From a bacterium HR28 (GTDB lineage: Bacteria > Chloroflexota > Chloroflexia > Thermomicrobiales > Thermomicrobiaceae): a DNA stretch of 64,000 nt. Position 1 is the first letter of the stretch. Each line of letters begins with the position of its first letter. The translations under genes and the position numbers were made by a program. The stretch lies in assembly GCA_002898255.1 (NCBI GenBank), contig BEIE01000004.1, forward strand, positions 62,001 through 126,000, given 5' to 3'. This document shows positions 33,424 to 43,491 of the stretch, piece by piece. The notes under the pieces are model-generated. The model had not been told where the DNA came from. It did no database searches and saw only the letters and a program-made list of their open reading frames with translations.

Positions 33424-34344
33424 ATGCAAGTGGGATACGATCGACCGCTGTATATCCTGGCCTTCGACCATCGGAGTTCTTTTGAGGAGATGGCAGCAAA
33501 GGCCGGAATAGGCGAAGAAGAGCGGGCGGAGAAGATCCGTCAGGCGAAGCAGGTGATCTTCGAAGGGTTCGAAGTCGCGATCGCGCAGGGAGCTCCACGT
33601 GAGTCAGCGGGGATCCTCGTTGACGAGCAATACGGAGCTGAGGTGGCTCGCCGAGCGCGGGAGCGTGGTTACCTGTTCGCCATGCCGGTCGAGAAGAGTG
33701 GGCAAAAGGTTTTCGACTTTGAGTATGGAGAGCAGTTTGGCGAGCACATCCTGGCCTTCGACCCGACGTTTACCAAGGCGCTCGTCCGGTACAACCCGGA
33801 TGATCCCTCCGATACGAAGAAGATACAACTTGAGCGTCTCAAGCGGCTCCACGATTGGCTCCGGGAGCGGGAGCGGCGATTCCTGCTTGAGCTGCTTGTG
33901 CCGGCGACGAAGGGGCAGCTTGAGCAGGTAGGCGGAGATACCGAGCGCTATGACCGAGAGATCCGTCCAGAGCTCACGCTGCAGGCCATCGACGAGTTTT
34001 ATGCGGCAGGTGTTGTACCGGACATCTGGAAGATCGAGGGACTCGATCGGCGGGAAGACTGCGAGCGTATGGCAGCAAAGGTGCGGAGCGGTGGTCGCGA
34101 CGCAGTGAGTTGCGTTGTGCTCGGTCGCGGTGCTGATCCGGCGCGGGTGGACCATTGGTTGCGCATGGGGGCAGGGGTGCCGGGGTACATAGGATTTGCG
34201 ATCGGCCGTACGCTGTGGTGGGAGGGTGTGCAGGGCTTTTTGAACGGAACGCTGACGCGAGAAGCTGCTGCGGAGAAGATCGCCGCGAATTATCGCCGCG
34301 CAATTGATCTCTTTGTGGAGGCTTCCCAGGCCGTCGTCAGATGA
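33424..34344 (+). CDS. DUF2090 aldolase-like protein
   Basis: A 306-residue protein of the DUF2090 family: YILAFDHRSSFEEMAAKAG at the start, GILVDEQYGAEVARRARERG, AMPVEKSGQKVF, LLELLVPATKGQLEQ, PDIWKIEGLDRREDCERMA and a C-terminal GFAIGRTLWWEG. This is the domain that in other bacteria is fused to IolC and acts as a class I aldolase in inositol breakdown. Here it stands alone, with no iol genes in the window. ATG 33424 has GGGAGG 7 bases upstream. A strong hairpin follows the stop. Confidence 0.82.
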   Translation: MQVGYDRPLYILAFDHRSSFEEMAAKAGIGEEERAEKIRQAKQVIFEGFEVAIAQGAPRESAGILVDEQYGAEVARRARERGYLFAMPVEKSGQKVFDFEYGEQFGEHILAFDPTFTKALVRYNPDDPSDTKKIQLERLKRLHDWLRERERRFLLELLVPATKGQLEQVGGDTERYDREIRPELTLQAIDEFYAAGVVPDIWKIEGLDRREDCERMAAKVRSGGRDAVSCVVLGRGADPARVDHWLRMGAGVPGYIGFAIGRTLWWEGVQGFLNGTLTREAAAEKIAANYRRAIDLFVEASQAVVR

Positions 34345-34365: not shown

Positions 34366-34406
34366 GAGCGGCACGAGCATCGAGCCACTCGATGCTCGTG
34401 CCGCTC
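34366..34406. other. 19-bp hairpin after DUF2090 gene
   Basis: GAGCGGCACGAGCATCGAG, a three-base loop, then its complement. There is no T-run after it on the + strand. A stable transcript-end or RNA-protecting structure is likely. The palindromic terminator at 34431 follows 24 bases later. Confidence 0.7.
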
Positions 34407-34454: not shown

Positions 34455-34469
34455 CTCATTCTGTTTCGG

Positions 34470-34542
34470 TGCCGAGGGGCGGGATCGAACCGCCGACACC
34501 GTGATTTTCAGTCACGTGCTCTACCAACTGAGCTACCTCGGC
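34470..34542 (-). tRNA. tRNA-Phe (anticodon GAA)
   Basis: Read leftward: acceptor GCCGAGG/CCTCGGC, D-arm GCTC/GAGC, anticodon stem CGTGA/TCACG with loop CTGAAAA (GAA), T-stem GGCGG/CCGCC. Discriminator A. Last tRNA of the leftward cluster. Confidence 0.96.
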
Positions 34543-34564
34543 TCATGCTGCCTTACGGCACTCG

Positions 34565-34637
34565 TGGGCGATAGAGGACTCGAACCTCTGACTTCCACGG
34601 TGTAAACGTGGCGCTCTACCAGCTGAGCTAATCGCCC
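34565..34637 (-). tRNA. tRNA-Val (anticodon TAC)
   Basis: Read leftward: acceptor GGGCGAT/ATCGCCC, anticodon stem CCACG/CGTGG with loop TTTACAC (TAC), T-stem AGAGG/CCTCT. Discriminator A. Confidence 0.96.
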
Positions 34638-34646
34638 GCGAAGTGG

Positions 34647-34730
34647 TGCCGAGGAAGGGATTTGAACCCCCACGCCCTTTCGGGCACTACCCCCTCAAGG
34701 TAGCGCGTCTGCCTATTCCGCCACCTCGGC
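34647..34730 (-). tRNA. tRNA-Leu (anticodon GAG)
   Basis: Read leftward: acceptor GCCGAGG/CCTCGGC, anticodon stem CTACC/GGTAG with loop TTGAGGG (GAG), and a long variable arm (GCCC, GAAA, GGGC) as expected for a class II tRNA. Discriminator A. First of the cluster. Confidence 0.96.
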
Positions 34731-34759
34731 ACGTCCCTGCCGCCTCGGCAGCACCATAG

Positions 34760-34789
34760 AGTATAGGCAGCAGCTGGGTGCGCTGTCAA
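34760..34789 (-). promoter_or_regulatory. Promoter of tRNA cluster (Leu-Val-Phe)
   Basis: Read leftward: consensus TTGACA (34784-34789), 18-base spacer, TATACT (34760-34765), about 30 bases before tRNA-Leu. The best promoter in the window. Confidence 0.85.
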
Positions 34790-34995
34790 GGGTCGGTGTG
34801 CAGGACTCGGAACCTTTGCACCAAACTGGACGCTGGTTCCAACGAGTACCGCGTCACCAACTCTGTGCCCTTGTCTTGGCCCAATGAGCTACGGGCTTCG
34901 TGGGACAAGGCCGTCGCCGAGGCGCGACTGCACGCCATCACGTGCGGTCTAGCGAGAACCGAGCCCAACCGCGCCGATGATCCGCACCCAACAGT

Positions 34996-35039
34996 CTTGA
35001 CACTGTCCAAACGAGTCTGCTATGTTGGACAGTGTCAAG
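34996..35039 (+). promoter_or_regulatory. Dyad operator over promoter of Fur/PerR-type gene
   Basis: CTTGACACTGTCCAA (34996-35010), 14 bases, then its exact inverse TTGGACAGTGTCAAG (35025-35039). The promoter TTGACA (34997-35002), 18-base spacer, TATGTT (35021-35026) lies inside the dyad, so a bound repressor would block it. Each arm is itself near-palindromic (TTGACA/TGTCCAA), consistent with two Fur-type dimer sites. Autoregulation by the downstream gene is inference. Confidence 0.8.
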
Positions 35040-35055
35040 AAAGGATCGTCCTTCG

Positions 35056-35601
35056 GTGAGTCACGATCTCCCTGAGGAGCGGATGAGCCAGCTCGTGGCG
35101 CGACTGCGTAGAGCAGGACTGCGTGCCACTCGACCGCGGATCCTCGTGCTCGATGTGTTGGATCGAGCTGGCGGGCATCTGGCCGCGGATGAAGTGTTGG
35201 CTCGCCTGCGTGCCCGCGGTTTCCGACTCTCCCGTGCGACCGTCTATAACGTCATTCATTCTTTGGTGTCGTCGGGACTTGTGATGATTGCGGACACAGG
35301 GCCGGGACGAATGCTCCTGGAGCCAGCGAGGGTGTGGCACCATCACTTTGTCTGTCGAGAATGCGGTAGTGTTATCGACGTCCCGTGCGCCGTCGGAGCG
35401 AAGCCTTGTCTGCAGCCCGATCTCCCTGGTGCTGAGGTCGATGAAGCCCAGGTGATTTGGCGCGGCCGATGTCCACGCTGTGTCATGCGCTCAGCAACGG
35501 GAGGTGGTAGCCATGCGGAGACGACTTCCTCCGGGGCGAGCACCACCGTGATCGACCGACGAGAGTTTGGGCGACCTGGTCTGATGTCGGAGAGGCACTA
35601 A
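35056..35601 (+). CDS. Fur/PerR-family metal-dependent repressor
   Basis: A protein of about 181 residues. The winged helix (TRPRILVLDVLDRAGGHLAADEVL, LSRATVYNVIHSLVSSGLV) is followed by a metal domain with VWHHHFVCRECGSVIDVPC (His-rich site and CxxC) and a later CPRC pair for structural zinc. Fur, PerR and Zur share this layout; peroxide sensing is suggested because a catalase gene follows 18 bases on. The start is uncertain: GTG 35056 has AAAGGA upstream, while ATG 35083 has GAGGAG closer. The GTG at 35032 lies inside the operator and is unlikely. Confidence 0.8.
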   Translation: MSHDLPEERMSQLVARLRRAGLRATRPRILVLDVLDRAGGHLAADEVLARLRARGFRLSRATVYNVIHSLVSSGLVMIADTGPGRMLLEPARVWHHHFVCRECGSVIDVPCAVGAKPCLQPDLPGAEVDEAQVIWRGRCPRCVMRSATGGGSHAETTSSGASTTVIDRREFGRPGLMSERH

Positions 35602-35619
35602 AACAAGGGAGGGAGTGCC

Positions 35620-36507
35620 ATGTACCTGCGCATCGATCGGCTGCAGATCGAGTTGCCACAACCAAAGGAGCCGGATCCGAATGCCGCGGCGGCGGTTCAG
35701 GAGCTCCTCGGCGGGCGGTTCGGCGAGATGTCGACGCTCATGAACTATACCTATCAATCCTTCAACTTCCGGGGGCGCGACAAGCTGCGCCCGTATTACG
35801 ATCTCATCGCGAACATCGCGACGGAAGAACTTGGGCACATTGAGCTGGTCGCGGCGACGGTCAATCTTATGCTCACTGGTACGACCAAGCCGGGTGCTCC
35901 GGAGACTGCACCGCTGGCACCTGCAGTGAATCTGCGCAACACGCACCACTTTATCGCCACTGCACAGACAGCTTTCGTTGGGAACTCAATGGGGGCGTTC
36001 TGGCACGGTGACTACGTTTTCTCCAGCGGTAATCTGGTGCTCGATCTGTTGCATAACTTTTTCCTTGAGTGTGGAGCTCGCTTGCACAAGATCCGCGTCT
36101 ATGAGATGACAACGAATCCGGTCGCGCGTGAGATGATTGGTTATCTGCTGGTCCGCGGTGGCGTCCATGCCACAGCGTACGCTAAGGCGCTTGAGACACT
36201 GACGGGCGTGCAGGTGACGAAACTGCTGCCGATCCCGAACATCGAGAATAGTAAGTTCCCGGAAGCCCGGAAGTACGAGAACATGGGAGTGCACCGACGC
36301 CTCTACCGGTTCAGTCCTGAGGATTACAAGGAGATCGCCCGGATCTGGCGAGGACCCTCGCCAACTGGAGATGGCGAGCTCGAGGTGGTCGATGGGCCGC
36401 CCGCAGGAGGACCGGTGCCCGACTTGCCAGAGGTTCCGGAAGAGTTTGCACCAGGCCTTGCCCCAGAGGAGATCGCCGAGCTCGCGAAGAAGCTGGCCGC
36501 AAGCTAA
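35620..36507 (+). CDS. katN: Manganese catalase
   Basis: A 295-residue non-haem catalase. The dimanganese ligands are all present at the positions known for the Thermus enzyme type: Glu36 (GGRFGEMSTL), Glu70 and His73 (TEELGHIEL), Glu150 (FFLECGARLHK) and His183 (GGVHATAYAKA). It disproportionates hydrogen peroxide. The C-terminal 60 residues are Pro/Glu-rich and beyond the catalytic bundle. GGGAGGGAG precedes ATG 35620. It is cotranscribed with the Fur/PerR-type gene, which suggests peroxide-induced synthesis. Confidence 0.93.
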   Translation: MYLRIDRLQIELPQPKEPDPNAAAAVQELLGGRFGEMSTLMNYTYQSFNFRGRDKLRPYYDLIANIATEELGHIELVAATVNLMLTGTTKPGAPETAPLAPAVNLRNTHHFIATAQTAFVGNSMGAFWHGDYVFSSGNLVLDLLHNFFLECGARLHKIRVYEMTTNPVAREMIGYLLVRGGVHATAYAKALETLTGVQVTKLLPIPNIENSKFPEARKYENMGVHRRLYRFSPEDYKEIARIWRGPSPTGDGELEVVDGPPAGGPVPDLPEVPEEFAPGLAPEEIAELAKKLAAS

Positions 36508-36539
36508 CAGGGCAAACTCCTCGCTGCTCACCACGAGTT

Positions 36540-36569
36540 GGGGACCGGCGGGTGCCGGTCCCCCTCTTT
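36540..36569 (+). terminator. Terminator after manganese catalase
   Basis: GGGGACCGGC, loop GGGT, then GCCGGTCCCC, followed by CTCTTTC. A 10-bp GC-rich stem with a short T-rich tail 33 bases after the catalase stop. Confidence 0.75.
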
Positions 36570-36597
36570 CCCGCGGAAACCTGTTTTAGGGGGCGGC

Positions 36598-38436
36598 TCA
36601 CGACGCAGTCACATCGTTTTCCTCCTCAGGGTAAATCACGCGGAGATGCAATTCTCGGAGTTGCTTCTCGTCTAGGGGTGAGGGGGCTCCGAGCATGAGA
36701 TCTTGCGCCCGCTGGTTCTTCGGGAACGCAATCACCTCGCGGAGCGAAGACTCTCCAGCGAGGATCATGACGGTTCGATCCAAGCCCGGTGCCATTCCAC
36801 CGTGCGGTGGCGCACCATACTCAAAAGCTCGCAAGAGATGTCCGAACCGTCGCTCAATCTCTGCATCGTCGTACCCCATAATGGCGAAGATCTTGTTCTG
36901 TACCTCCCGGCGGTGGATTCGAATACTCCCGGTTCCGAGTTCGTAGCCATCCGCAACCAGATCATAGGCCTTGGCACGCACTCGTCCGGGATCAGTGTCG
37001 AGGAGCGGAACGTCCTGGTCCAAAGGACTCGTGAACGGGTGATGCATAGCTTCCCAGCGCTGTTCTTCCTCGTTCCACTCGAAAAGTGGTGGATCGACAA
37101 CCCAGCAGAAGGCATGAACACTCTCGTTGATCAGCTTTCGTTCGCGCCCGACATGATTTCGGAGTCGGCCGAGCACATTGGCTGCTACACTCTCGACGTC
37201 TGCCACAAGCAAGACAAGGTCGCCGGGGCCGGCTCCCAGGCGCTGGGCAGTTGCCGCGATTTCCTCTGGCTGCAGGAACTTGGCGACAGGGGAGCGGGCA
37301 CTCAAACGGCCCTCTTCCTGATGCAGTGCCAGCCAGACGAGTCCCTTTGCCCCGAAGGTTCGTGCCACCTCTGTCAACTGATCAAGCTGAGAGCGCGAGG
37401 CATCGGCGAAGCCGGGTACGGCGAAGCCACGGACCACACCCCCGTTTTCTAGGGCTGTGCGGAACACGCCAAACGAGGTTCCTCGGAACACATCGGAGAC
37501 GTCTTCAATTTCCAGGCCAAACCGCAAGTCTGGCTTGTCGCTTCCATAGCGGAGCATCGCTTCCGAATAGGTGAGCCGGGGAAACGGCTTTGCGAGGAGC
37601 GGCTTTGAAGCAAAACGCTCGAAGAGCTCCGTGTAGAGACCCTCAACGAGTTCGATGACATCTTCGACATCCACGAAGGACATCTCGAGGTCAATTTGAG
37701 TGAACTCGGGTTGCCGGTCGGCGCGCAGATCCTCGTCGCGCATACAGCGGGCGATCTGGTAATAACGATCGAAGCCTGCGACCATTAACAGTTGCTTGAG
37801 CTGCTGTGGGGACTGAGGTAAGGCATAGAAATGCCCTGGGAAGATACGACTGGGAACAACGTAGTCTCGAGCACCCTCCGGCGTGCTCTTAATGAGCATT
37901 GGTGTCTCAATCTCGACGAAATCACGCTCCTCGAGGTACTGGCGAATGAAGCGCACCACTTGGTGGCGAAGCAAGAGGTTACGCTGGAGGCGCGCTCGCC
38001 GCAGATCGAGGTAGCGGAACTCGAGGCGTAACGACTCGTCAACATCTGTCTCTTCCGCGATCGGGAAAGGTGGCGTCTTCGCTGGGTTAAGAATCTCAAT
38101 CCGGTCCGCGAGGACTTCAATTTCCCCTGTAGCGAGAGCTGGGTTGACGGTTCCCTCCGGTCGAGCGACAACCTGGCCAGTCACGGACAGGACATACTCG
38201 GTCCTGACGCGCTCGGCCATCGCGTGCGCTTCGCTTGAGTGCGCCGGATTGGCCACCACCTGGGTGATCCCGTACCGATCGCGGAGATCAAGGAAGATCA
38301 ACCCACCATGATCGCGCCGGCGATGGACCCAGCCTTTTAGCGTAACTGTGCGACCAACGTGTTCGCGGCGGAGTTCCCCGCACGTAGTGTAACGGCGAGT
38401 TCCGGCCCGCTGCGTCGAAGTCAGCCCATCGGTCAT
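36598..38436 (-). CDS. aspS: Aspartyl-tRNA synthetase
   Basis: A 612-residue bacterial-type AspRS. It has an N-terminal anticodon OB-fold ([20 protein letters not shown]), catalytic motifs ([40 protein letters not shown]), the GAD insertion in the middle, and motif 3 ([17 protein letters not shown]). It charges tRNA-Asp, possibly also tRNA-Asn if AsnRS is lacking. ATG 38436 with GGGAG before it. Followed upstream by the MazG-type gene on the same strand. Confidence 0.96.
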
Positions 38437-41730: not shown

Positions 41731-43341
41731 TCACCGTCCAAGTATAGCTGCCACGATTTGCCTCATCGGCCGGCGAAGCATTCGCTTGAAGGTGGCGGCG
41801 AGGCGTGTGATGTCAGGTTGACCAAAGACAAGAGCAATGAGCACATAGGCCGCGAGGACGGCTGCCACTGTGTATCCAAAGGCGAAGAATTGTGCGAACG
41901 ACCGTCCGCGCGTGGGATCCGTTGCCAGCGCTAGGGGAGTTGCAAACCAGAGAGTGGCTATGGTGAGCGTTGCGAGGGCTGGAAGTGCTCGCGCTAATCC
42001 TCTGAGTGTCTCGCTTAGGTTCAGGCGTACCCGTCGGTGCACAAGGAGACCGAGGACACCCATTTCGACTGTCGTTGCCAGTGCGAGACTAAGGGCCAAG
42101 CCACGATGACCGAGGACTCCGATGAGTGTGAGACTGAGCACAAGATTTGTCCCAACTGCGACGAGCGCGGCGATGACGGGCGAGCGGCTGTCCTTAAAAG
42201 CGTAGGACAGGCGTGTGAGGAGTTCCACGATTGCATAAGCGAGGAGCCCGGGTGCGAACCAGCGGAGGGCCTCCGAGACCAGGTATGTCGAGGTGGCGGT
42301 GAAGGCACCGAACTGGAAAAGTGTTTGCACGATGCTGCGCGAGAATCCGCCAAAGAGTACTGTCATTGGGATCGTAATGAGAACCAGCACACGCAACGTC
42401 TGGCCAACTGTCTGTTGGAGCTGGTGGTAGTCTCCCGCTGACCGATAGCGTGTCAGGGTAGGAAAGAGAACTGTGGCGACGCTGAGCGCGAAAATACCGT
42501 GTGGAAGGAGAAATATTTGGTAGGCATACTGCAATGAGGCAATGTACTGGTGGCCGATTCGCGAGGCAAGGTTGGTGGTAATCAGGAGATTTGCCTGCAT
42601 GGCAGCTTGAGCAAGCAGGCGTGGTCCAAGGAGAGATAGGACATCGCGGAGGCCGGTGACAGAGCGGTCAAAGGATAGGCGAAACTGCCACCCGGTCCGG
42701 TAGAGCGCCCAAAGTTGCAGAGCCGCATAACCCGCGGCACCCACGATGACGCCGATAGCCAGGCCGTAGACACCGGCGAAAGGGGCGAGGGCGACCGTTC
42801 CGGCGATGATACCTAGGTTATAGAGGAGCGGTGCAACTGCTGGTTCCGTAAAGCGGGATTCCGACTCGAGCATAGCCTTGGCGGCGGCTCCGATTCCGAG
42901 GCACAACGGTGAGAGCATAAGCAGGCGAGTGAGATCCGCTGCCAGCGCACGGCTTTCGGGGCTGAGCCCTGGTGCAACGAGAGAACCGATCAAGCTATCT
43001 GCGGTGATCAGCACAGTTAGAGAGGCGAGCAGAAACATGGCGACCGTCATGCTCAGGAGCGTGTTGGCTAGTCGCCAAGCCGAGTGACGCTGCCCCTTCG
43101 TCAGAAGTTCAGCATAGACCGGAATGAATGCCGAACCGAAAGCACCGCTCATCACCACGAGGAAGATGAGATCAGGGATCCGGAAGGCTGCAACATAGGC
43201 ATCGTAGTCCGGTGAGGTCCCGAATCTTGCCGCGATGAGGATGTCGCGTAGTAGACCGAGGAGGCGGCTTGCGACAAACAGCGCGGCGACAACGAGCGTC
43301 GCGCGAGCGAGATGCTGCCTTTTCTGCTGCTCGACCGTCAT
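41731..43341 (-). CDS. murJ: Lipid II flippase MurJ (MviN)
   Basis: A 536-residue membrane protein of the MviN/MurJ type with about 14 helices. The start has ASRLLGLLRDILIAARFG, the family's first-helix signature, then RIPDLIFLVVMSGAFGSAFIP. It flips lipid II across the membrane for peptidoglycan synthesis. ATG 43341 is preceded by AGGAGG. It lies upstream of lepA on the same strand. Confidence 0.94.
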   Translation of the reverse strand: MTVEQQKRQHLARATLVVAALFVASRLLGLLRDILIAARFGTSPDYDAYVAAFRIPDLIFLVVMSGAFGSAFIPVYAELLTKGQRHSAWRLANTLLSMTVAMFLLASLTVLITADSLIGSLVAPGLSPESRALAADLTRLLMLSPLCLGIGAAAKAMLESESRFTEPAVAPLLYNLGIIAGTVALAPFAGVYGLAIGVIVGAAGYAALQLWALYRTGWQFRLSFDRSVTGLRDVLSLLGPRLLAQAAMQANLLITTNLASRIGHQYIASLQYAYQIFLLPHGIFALSVATVLFPTLTRYRSAGDYHQLQQTVGQTLRVLVLITIPMTVLFGGFSRSIVQTLFQFGAFTATSTYLVSEALRWFAPGLLAYAIVELLTRLSYAFKDSRSPVIAALVAVGTNLVLSLTLIGVLGHRGLALSLALATTVEMGVLGLLVHRRVRLNLSETLRGLARALPALATLTIATLWFATPLALATDPTRGRSFAQFFAFGYTVAAVLAAYVLIALVFGQPDITRLAATFKRMLRRPMRQIVAAILGR

Positions 43342-43491
43342 GGAGCCTCCTGTGACTCCCGCGGTATCTTACTGGGAGCTCCGTCGTACCGGTGACCGGG
43401 AATGCTGGAGCGGCAGCGAAATCCTTTTCATGCTAGACTTTGGAGCCAGGACAACGCGTGCAGGTTCGAGAAACCAAGGGGGTAAGGAGCC

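Follow-up and report, generated by a model that had tools for sequence, protein, structure and literature searches.

Two FurA-like boxes over the promoter of a putative regulator–manganese catalase operon in Thermomicrobiaceae

The PerR box of Bacillus subtilis is TTATAAT. For mycobacterial FurA, the box is given as TCTTGACT-N-ATTCCAGA in an excerpt of one paper (PMC4218801) and as T[CT]TTGACT[CG][AG]TTCCA[GA]A... in an excerpt of another (PMC4319475), and in the furA promoter it has been mapped to the region of the −35 (PMC2443159, in part). The same portion of that paper reports that H2O2 inhibits FurA binding to its box and that the levels of furAII and katGII in M. fortuitum were unchanged by H2O2 (PMC2443159). 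For FurS of Streptomyces reticuli, an extract states that H2O2 abolishes binding to its own operator through a disulfide in CxxC (PMC3184428). CatR of Streptomyces, transcribed divergently from katA1 in S. natalensis, is described as an H2O2-sensitive repressor by the title of a cited reference (PMC3219662). Here we analyzed a window of 64,000 nucleotides from contig BEIE01000004.1 of the bacterium HR28 (Thermomicrobiaceae) and computed, for one regulator–catalase gene pair within it, the boxes, the placement of the promoter, their conservation, their tie to the regulator, its kinship with FurA, and its residues.

The two genes are on the plus strand. The first (35056–35601) encodes a FurA/PerR-like Fur-family regulator of 181 amino acids counted from GTG 35056, and the second (35620–36507) encodes a katN-like manganese catalase of 295 amino acids; the 18-nt gap between the regulator stop codon and the catalase ATG (35602–35619) is purine-rich and Shine-Dalgarno-like. 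The regulator scored 64.9 bits against PF01475 (cut-off 23.1), which assigns it to the Fur superfamily, and the catalase scored 290.5 bits against PF05067 (cut-off 27), which assigns it to the manganese catalases. An earlier note on this DNA, made from the letters alone, had thus named both proteins and the 18-base distance correctly. The catalase was below the cut-off of the NCBIfam model ManCatBAC (172.1 versus 350). In a phmmer search it matched chain 2cwl_A, listed as a pseudocatalase (E 6.7e-131) and presumably from Thermus, and it has E36, E70, H73, E150, and H183 at the positions that we take to be the Mn-ligand places of manganese catalases. The earlier note had begun the regulator frame at GTG 35032; the more likely start is GTG 35056, because the start codons of the orthologs are equivalent there and 35032 lies inside the operator described below. 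Farther upstream, three tRNA genes (Leu, Val, Phe) occupy 34468–34730 on the minus strand and are faced by a promoter-like sequence on that strand, TTGACA-18-TATACT (34760–34789; 11 of 12 matches). Just past a plus-strand frame ending at 34344 is a hairpin (34366–34406) whose 19-bp arms pair perfectly around a 3-nt loop, perhaps the terminator of that frame.

With numbering from GTG 35056, the regulator has the structural-zinc CxxC pairs at C100, C103, C139, and C142, which are invariant in six orthologs. An extra Cys pair, C111-x6-C118, is located outside these zinc motifs. The metal-site residues H41, E89, H95, H97, and D108 include four of the five PerR equivalents; the PerR set (His37, Asp85, His91, His93, Asp104) is incomplete, with Glu replacing Asp85. 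The best match to a PerR NCBIfam equivalog, NF047406, reached only 54.7 bits against a cut-off of 200. These residues suit an H2O2-sensing repressor, with Asp at the Asp104 place, yet the regulator is not a textbook PerR, because Glu stands at the Asp85 place. An excerpt describes a PerR-like protein of B. licheniformis, BL00950, that has Glu at this place as well, and says that histidine is the residue oxidized in the two additional PerR-like proteins of this species (PMC4866751); BL00950 is presumably one of these two. Contig C5 of genome G000 (43028–43417; L001) encodes a Fur paralog in which both acidic positions of PerR are Asp. That paralog has its own upstream 7-1-7 dyad, CGAGAATCATTCTCA, which is unlike the katN box, and the frames downstream of it appeared by eye to be sufC/sufB-like.

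The residues bear on what the signal might be. The operator and autorepression proposed below could be the same while the regulator responds to metal status, that is, to Mn or Fe supply rather than peroxide, so that katN would be made only when there is manganese to load it or when iron is scarce. The enzyme does need Mn, and E. coli Fur also has Glu at the Asp85 place. Against a metal signal, the regulator has Asp at position 108, where E. coli Fur has Glu; the corresponding Asp104 place of PerR has been suggested to set H2O2 sensitivity, via access of H2O2 to the iron site, and so to part H2O2-sensitive PerR from Fur (PMC4866751, in part). This metal-supply signal is the main rival to a peroxide signal, and we judge it unlikely, also in view of the genes beside related regulators discussed below.

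Upstream of the regulator gene there is an inverted repeat with arms at 34995–35010 and 35025–35040, complementary at 16 of 16 positions and separated by a 14-nt spacer. It is perfect, as had been noted previously, and measures 16 bp rather than the 15 bp given at that time. The left arm contains the 7-1-7 box CTTGACA-C-TGTCCAA (34996–35010) and the right arm the 7-1-7 box TTGGACA-G-TGTCAAG (35025–35039), both read on the plus strand. The sole plus-strand sigma-70-like promoter found in 34750–36650 is TTGACA-18-TATGTT (34997–35026), which has 10 of 12 matches and a TG before the −10. Its −35 (34997–35002) is within the left box, in agreement with the earlier reading; its −10 is at 35021–35026, and the final two bases (35025–35026) fall in the right box, such that the right arm overlaps the −10 instead of simply flanking it, as had been supposed.

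From base composition, approximately 0.0014 perfect 16-bp repeats with a loop of 0–60 are expected per window; two distinct ones are present, the operator dyad and the hairpin starting at 34366. We concluded that the dyad is not a product of chance, because related genomes preserve both its sequence and its spacing. Each arm is also self-complementary at five of seven pairs around the central base, which accounts for its earlier description as near-palindromic; this palindromy was not above that of dinucleotide shuffles, and the same result was obtained for most loci tested, including that of the window. Palindrome counting was too weak and was replaced by a sequence-specific matrix test.

Once transcribed, the repeat would form a stable stem of 16 bp around a loop of 14 nt, and it might therefore act as an RNA hairpin, either an attenuator or a terminator, rather than as a DNA operator. 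The promoter, however, lies between and inside the arms, which would leave the left arm outside the transcript; the right arm is not followed by a T-run; and no Rfam match was found at the repeat. On these three grounds the RNA reading was rejected. In addition, one related genome (G004, below) has one arm only, and similar boxes stand singly upstream of other homologs. We regard an RNA function as scarcely credible.

Conservation was examined in 41 genomes, consisting of the organism's own genome and 40 relatives. Six of the 40 relatives have an ortholog of the regulator (G003, G004, G001, G002, G013, and G005; 62–96% identity), that of G005 being fragmented by stops and frame changes. Both boxes are kept in G003, G001, G002, and G013, with one base different in the right arm of G001 and an altered left box in G013. 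G004 retains the −35 and only the right box, TTGGACA-G-TGTCCAG, and G005 retains the right box only. Two boxes are thus not obligatory, because G004 has the right box only. The five promoters tabulated have 17 or 18 nt between −35 and −10 and 28 or 29 bp between box centers, and the two distances co-vary (for G004, with one box, the distance was measured from the box to its −35). The boxes hold their position in the related promoters, and the intervening bases vary. In G005 (contig C46, 37443–37919; L025) the regulator is broken, the adjoining katN frame is open, and the right box alone remains, as if control had been lost before the enzyme.

An exact search with TTKGACANTGTCMA gave matches in 7 of the 41 genomes, and these seven are identical to the seven with a regulator ortholog. 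Twelve of the 13 matches are at the regulator promoter, two of them representing one box found on both strands; the thirteenth is within a coding frame of G001. The reversed control pattern had three matches in the 41 genomes. The exact box was present in none of the 34 genomes without a regulator ortholog, some of which are incomplete assemblies, one being only 62% complete. Eight genomes have a katN homolog (64–79% identity; one partial) but no regulator, and the box is absent from all eight. The box thus goes with the regulator, not with katN.

Because inverted repeats are used by many regulators, the dyad could in principle be the site of another DNA-binding protein, with the regulator gene a mere neighbor. 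Against this, box and regulator ortholog occur together in seven of seven genomes, the 34 remaining genomes contain no exact copy of the box, the 7-1-7 geometry is typical of the Fur family, the dyad matches the FurA box, and held-out sites were found before homologous regulators in other phyla (the last two are described below). We consider such a foreign site quite improbable. The co-occurrence in 7 of 41 genomes and the conservation at the promoter support the view, already taken in the earlier note, that the dyad is very probably the regulator's own operator.

A search for further sites in the organism's own genome used the pattern TTGACANTGTCCAA with up to two mismatches and gave 39 matches (20 + 19 by strand) versus 26 for the reversed control; two of the 39 are the operator itself. 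No second exact site was found in this genome. The only one-mismatch site is in a small frame upstream of a succinate-dehydrogenase-flavoprotein-like frame (assigned by eye), and a pair of sites on contig C2 is inside a coding frame; both were set aside as coincidence. Apart from the two matches of the operator, inspection covered this one-mismatch match and this one pair among the 39. The search of the genome for the half-site at other genes, which had been proposed as a check, accordingly gave no second exact site, and the weaker sites inspected were in coding frames. The regulon may be one operon.

We compared the arms with the published FurA motif (PMC4319475). Over its first 17 positions, the motif agrees with the left arm at 34995 in 14, and no other place on either strand of the window scores as high. 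The right arm agrees at 13 of 17, level with seven other places and not independent of the left arm. The place of the match is what counts, because one 14/17 match in the whole window is about what chance would give and TTGAC is common to any −35. In the upstream stretch, the match had p 0.00995 (200 shuffles); when TTGAC was fixed and the 12 remaining positions were scored, p was 0.0019, and only 1 of 116 TTGAC sites in the window reached 14/17. Motif sites at p ≤ 0.01 were found in five of the six loci of FurA proteins, which served as a positive control, in 10 of 62 other loci, the window's included, and in none of five outside rows. Within the window's own family, L060 (p 0.11) and L062 (p 0.21) had no FurA motif at p ≤ 0.01. 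The 10 other loci include Acidimicrobiia, with boxes such as TTTAGACTAGTTCCAAA that bridge the FurA and Thermomicrobiaceae forms. The FurA box is thus the form of which the operator box is best regarded as a variant. The earlier note had put the operator box forward as a recognition sequence new to the family; the box of the katN operon is indeed unlike the TTATAAT box of PerR, but the 14/17 agreement of the left arm with the FurA box, together with the sister position of the regulator's clade to katG-linked FurA (below), weakens the claim of novelty.

Kinship with FurA was assessed in a tree of 86 rows, from which L115, L118, L121, L122, and the duplicate L059 were left out. In this tree, which carries the tool's warning of few columns and long outgroup branches, the window regulator is within a 62-row clade (99/93), the sister of which (97/83) is a six-row FurA clade (100/98); the regulator is not inside the FurA clade. 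Five of the six FurA rows stand before katG (L120 by motif; L124, L125, L127, and L129 by annotation), and the sixth, L126, stands before an organic hydroperoxide resistance gene. His41, Glu89, His95, and His97 are found in 62 of 62 clade rows, and each of Asp108, Cys111, and Cys118 is found in 61 of the 62. The six FurA rows have all seven residues.

For a wider survey of the box, 64 loci with homologs from named genomes were combined with eight added from plasmids, and a matrix was built from Thermomicrobiaceae half-sites only. With L115 dropped because it had no upstream DNA and six training rows set aside from a total of 74, 67 held-out loci were scored against shuffles of the same DNA. 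Sites were found for 16 of the 67 held-out regulators at p ≤ 0.01 and 26 at p ≤ 0.05, compared with 0 of 67 and 1 of 67, respectively, in coding-sequence controls; the 67 loci are not independent, and some rows are outside the regulator clade, so that nominal binomial values exaggerate the strength of this result. The matches include Streptosporangiaceae, Pseudonocardiaceae, Nitriliruptorales, Acidimicrobiia, Ktedonobacteria, Hydrogenedentota, and Planctomycetota. No matrix site at p ≤ 0.01 was found in 51 of the 67 held-out loci, all six FurA rows included (0 of 6; 2 of 6 at p ≤ 0.05). In many loci the code may have diverged or the site may be placed elsewhere.

Some of the boxes are closer to an ideal palindrome than those of the window: TTGGACA-G-TGTCCAG in G004, TTGGACA-T-TGTCCAA in L094, and TTGGACA-T-AGTCCAA in L083 and L096. 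The two-box layout recurs at 28 bp in two Ktedonobacteria loci, L080 and L095, where it is part of a promoter-like sequence that lies near the regulator and is divergent from it, with TTGACA or TTGACT inside one box and the second box overlapping the −10. These pairs are descriptive only, because the matrix used to list paired boxes also held half-sites from other phyla. The double box is on the minus strand in both loci, approximately 200 bp upstream of the regulator in L080 and 150 bp in L095, and the divergent gene side of L095 has a response-regulator-like frame.

The genes downstream of the regulator differ among lineages. By motif scan, a manganese catalase follows it in only four of the 64 named loci, all Thermomicrobiaceae. 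Ten downstream proteins of relatives, picked by eye, included two heme catalases, two VIT1-family proteins, and one ferrochelatase; the other five had no plain peroxide or iron link. The VIT1-family proteins, with an N-terminus that looked ferritin-like by eye, follow members of the regulator clade in some Actinomycetota (L083, L097). The heme catalases follow clade members in a Phycisphaerales and a Chloroflexi MAG (L076, L117); no box was found at L117 (p 0.40). The VIT1-family proteins and the ferrochelatase would fit a metal-status signal. The heme catalases of L076 and L117 and the katG genes behind five of six FurA rows argue against it, since the factor common to them is peroxide, not Mn.

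We consider it likely that the window holds an autoregulated, peroxide-responsive operon of a FurA-like repressor and a manganese catalase. We infer binding, repression, co-transcription, peroxide as the signal, and the oxidation chemistry in the following scheme. The regulator would act as a dimer, with structural zinc on the two CxxC motifs and regulatory Fe or Mn on His41, Glu89, His95/His97, and Asp108, and such a FurA-like dimer would bind each of the two 7-1-7 boxes. The bound repressor would cover the −35 in one box and the end of the −10 plus the start region in the other, shutting off RNA polymerase. H2O2 would oxidize the iron-loaded sensor, and the repressor would leave the promoter; regulator and manganese catalase would then be made until peroxide drops, when fresh repressor would reset the switch. 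The unchanged furAII and katGII levels under H2O2 in M. fortuitum (PMC2443159) speak against the scheme, and the distance of 28–29 bp between box centers, approximately 2.7 helical turns, does not favor same-face cooperation.

A broader proposal can be made tentatively, as one somewhat more apt to fail than to hold. A widespread Fur subfamily (62 rows, seven phylum labels), sister to FurA, may read TT(G/A/T)GACA-N-TGTC(C/A/T)AA, with several lineages using the −35 and the last bases of the −10 as half-sites, and may govern whatever gene for handling peroxide or iron is available (for a Mn catalase, a heme catalase, or a VIT1-family protein); the nearly invariant pair C111-x6-C118 would be a possible second, thiol-based peroxide sensor. 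The boxes offer a testable operator code for a branch of the Fur family and link the manganese catalase of a thermophile to control of the FurA type. In a Fur box built from a −35 hexamer, repression and promoter strength would use the same bases. For annotation, the start codon of the regulator is corrected. Among the matches listed in a search of open-licence PMC papers, no paper on this operon was recognized; one of those listed, PMC11641199, which concerns a mycobacterial protein and mouse ferroportin, contains the letters TGTCCAA and mentions the Fur family.

The operon resembles the furA-katG operon of mycobacteria and their relatives in that a Fur-family regulator gene is just 5′ of the gene for a peroxide-removing enzyme, and in that the regulator's own promoter has a box at its −35 (for furA, PMC2443159, in part). 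The regulator shares with FurA the metal-site residues and the extra Cys pair, C-x6-C. It differs in that the downstream gene encodes a manganese catalase and not KatG, that two boxes embrace the promoter, that the inner bases of the box are CA/TG instead of the CT/AT of FurA, a difference large enough for the Thermomicrobiaceae matrix to miss the FurA boxes at p ≤ 0.01, and that the regulator is placed in a sister clade. Like PerR of Bacillus subtilis, it is a member of the Fur family with two CxxC motifs and equivalents of His37, His91, His93, and Asp104; unlike PerR, it has Glu at the Asp85 place and is far below the PerR NCBIfam cut-off. FurS and CatR are likewise Fur-family regulators tied to catalase genes, but their targets are heme catalase or catalase-peroxidase. 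The circuit for catalase control therefore looks like a clean variant of one known from mycobacteria, with no new kind of DNA code; what would be modestly new is a sister subfamily with its own box, a two-box clamp over the −35 and −10, and the pairing with a manganese catalase.
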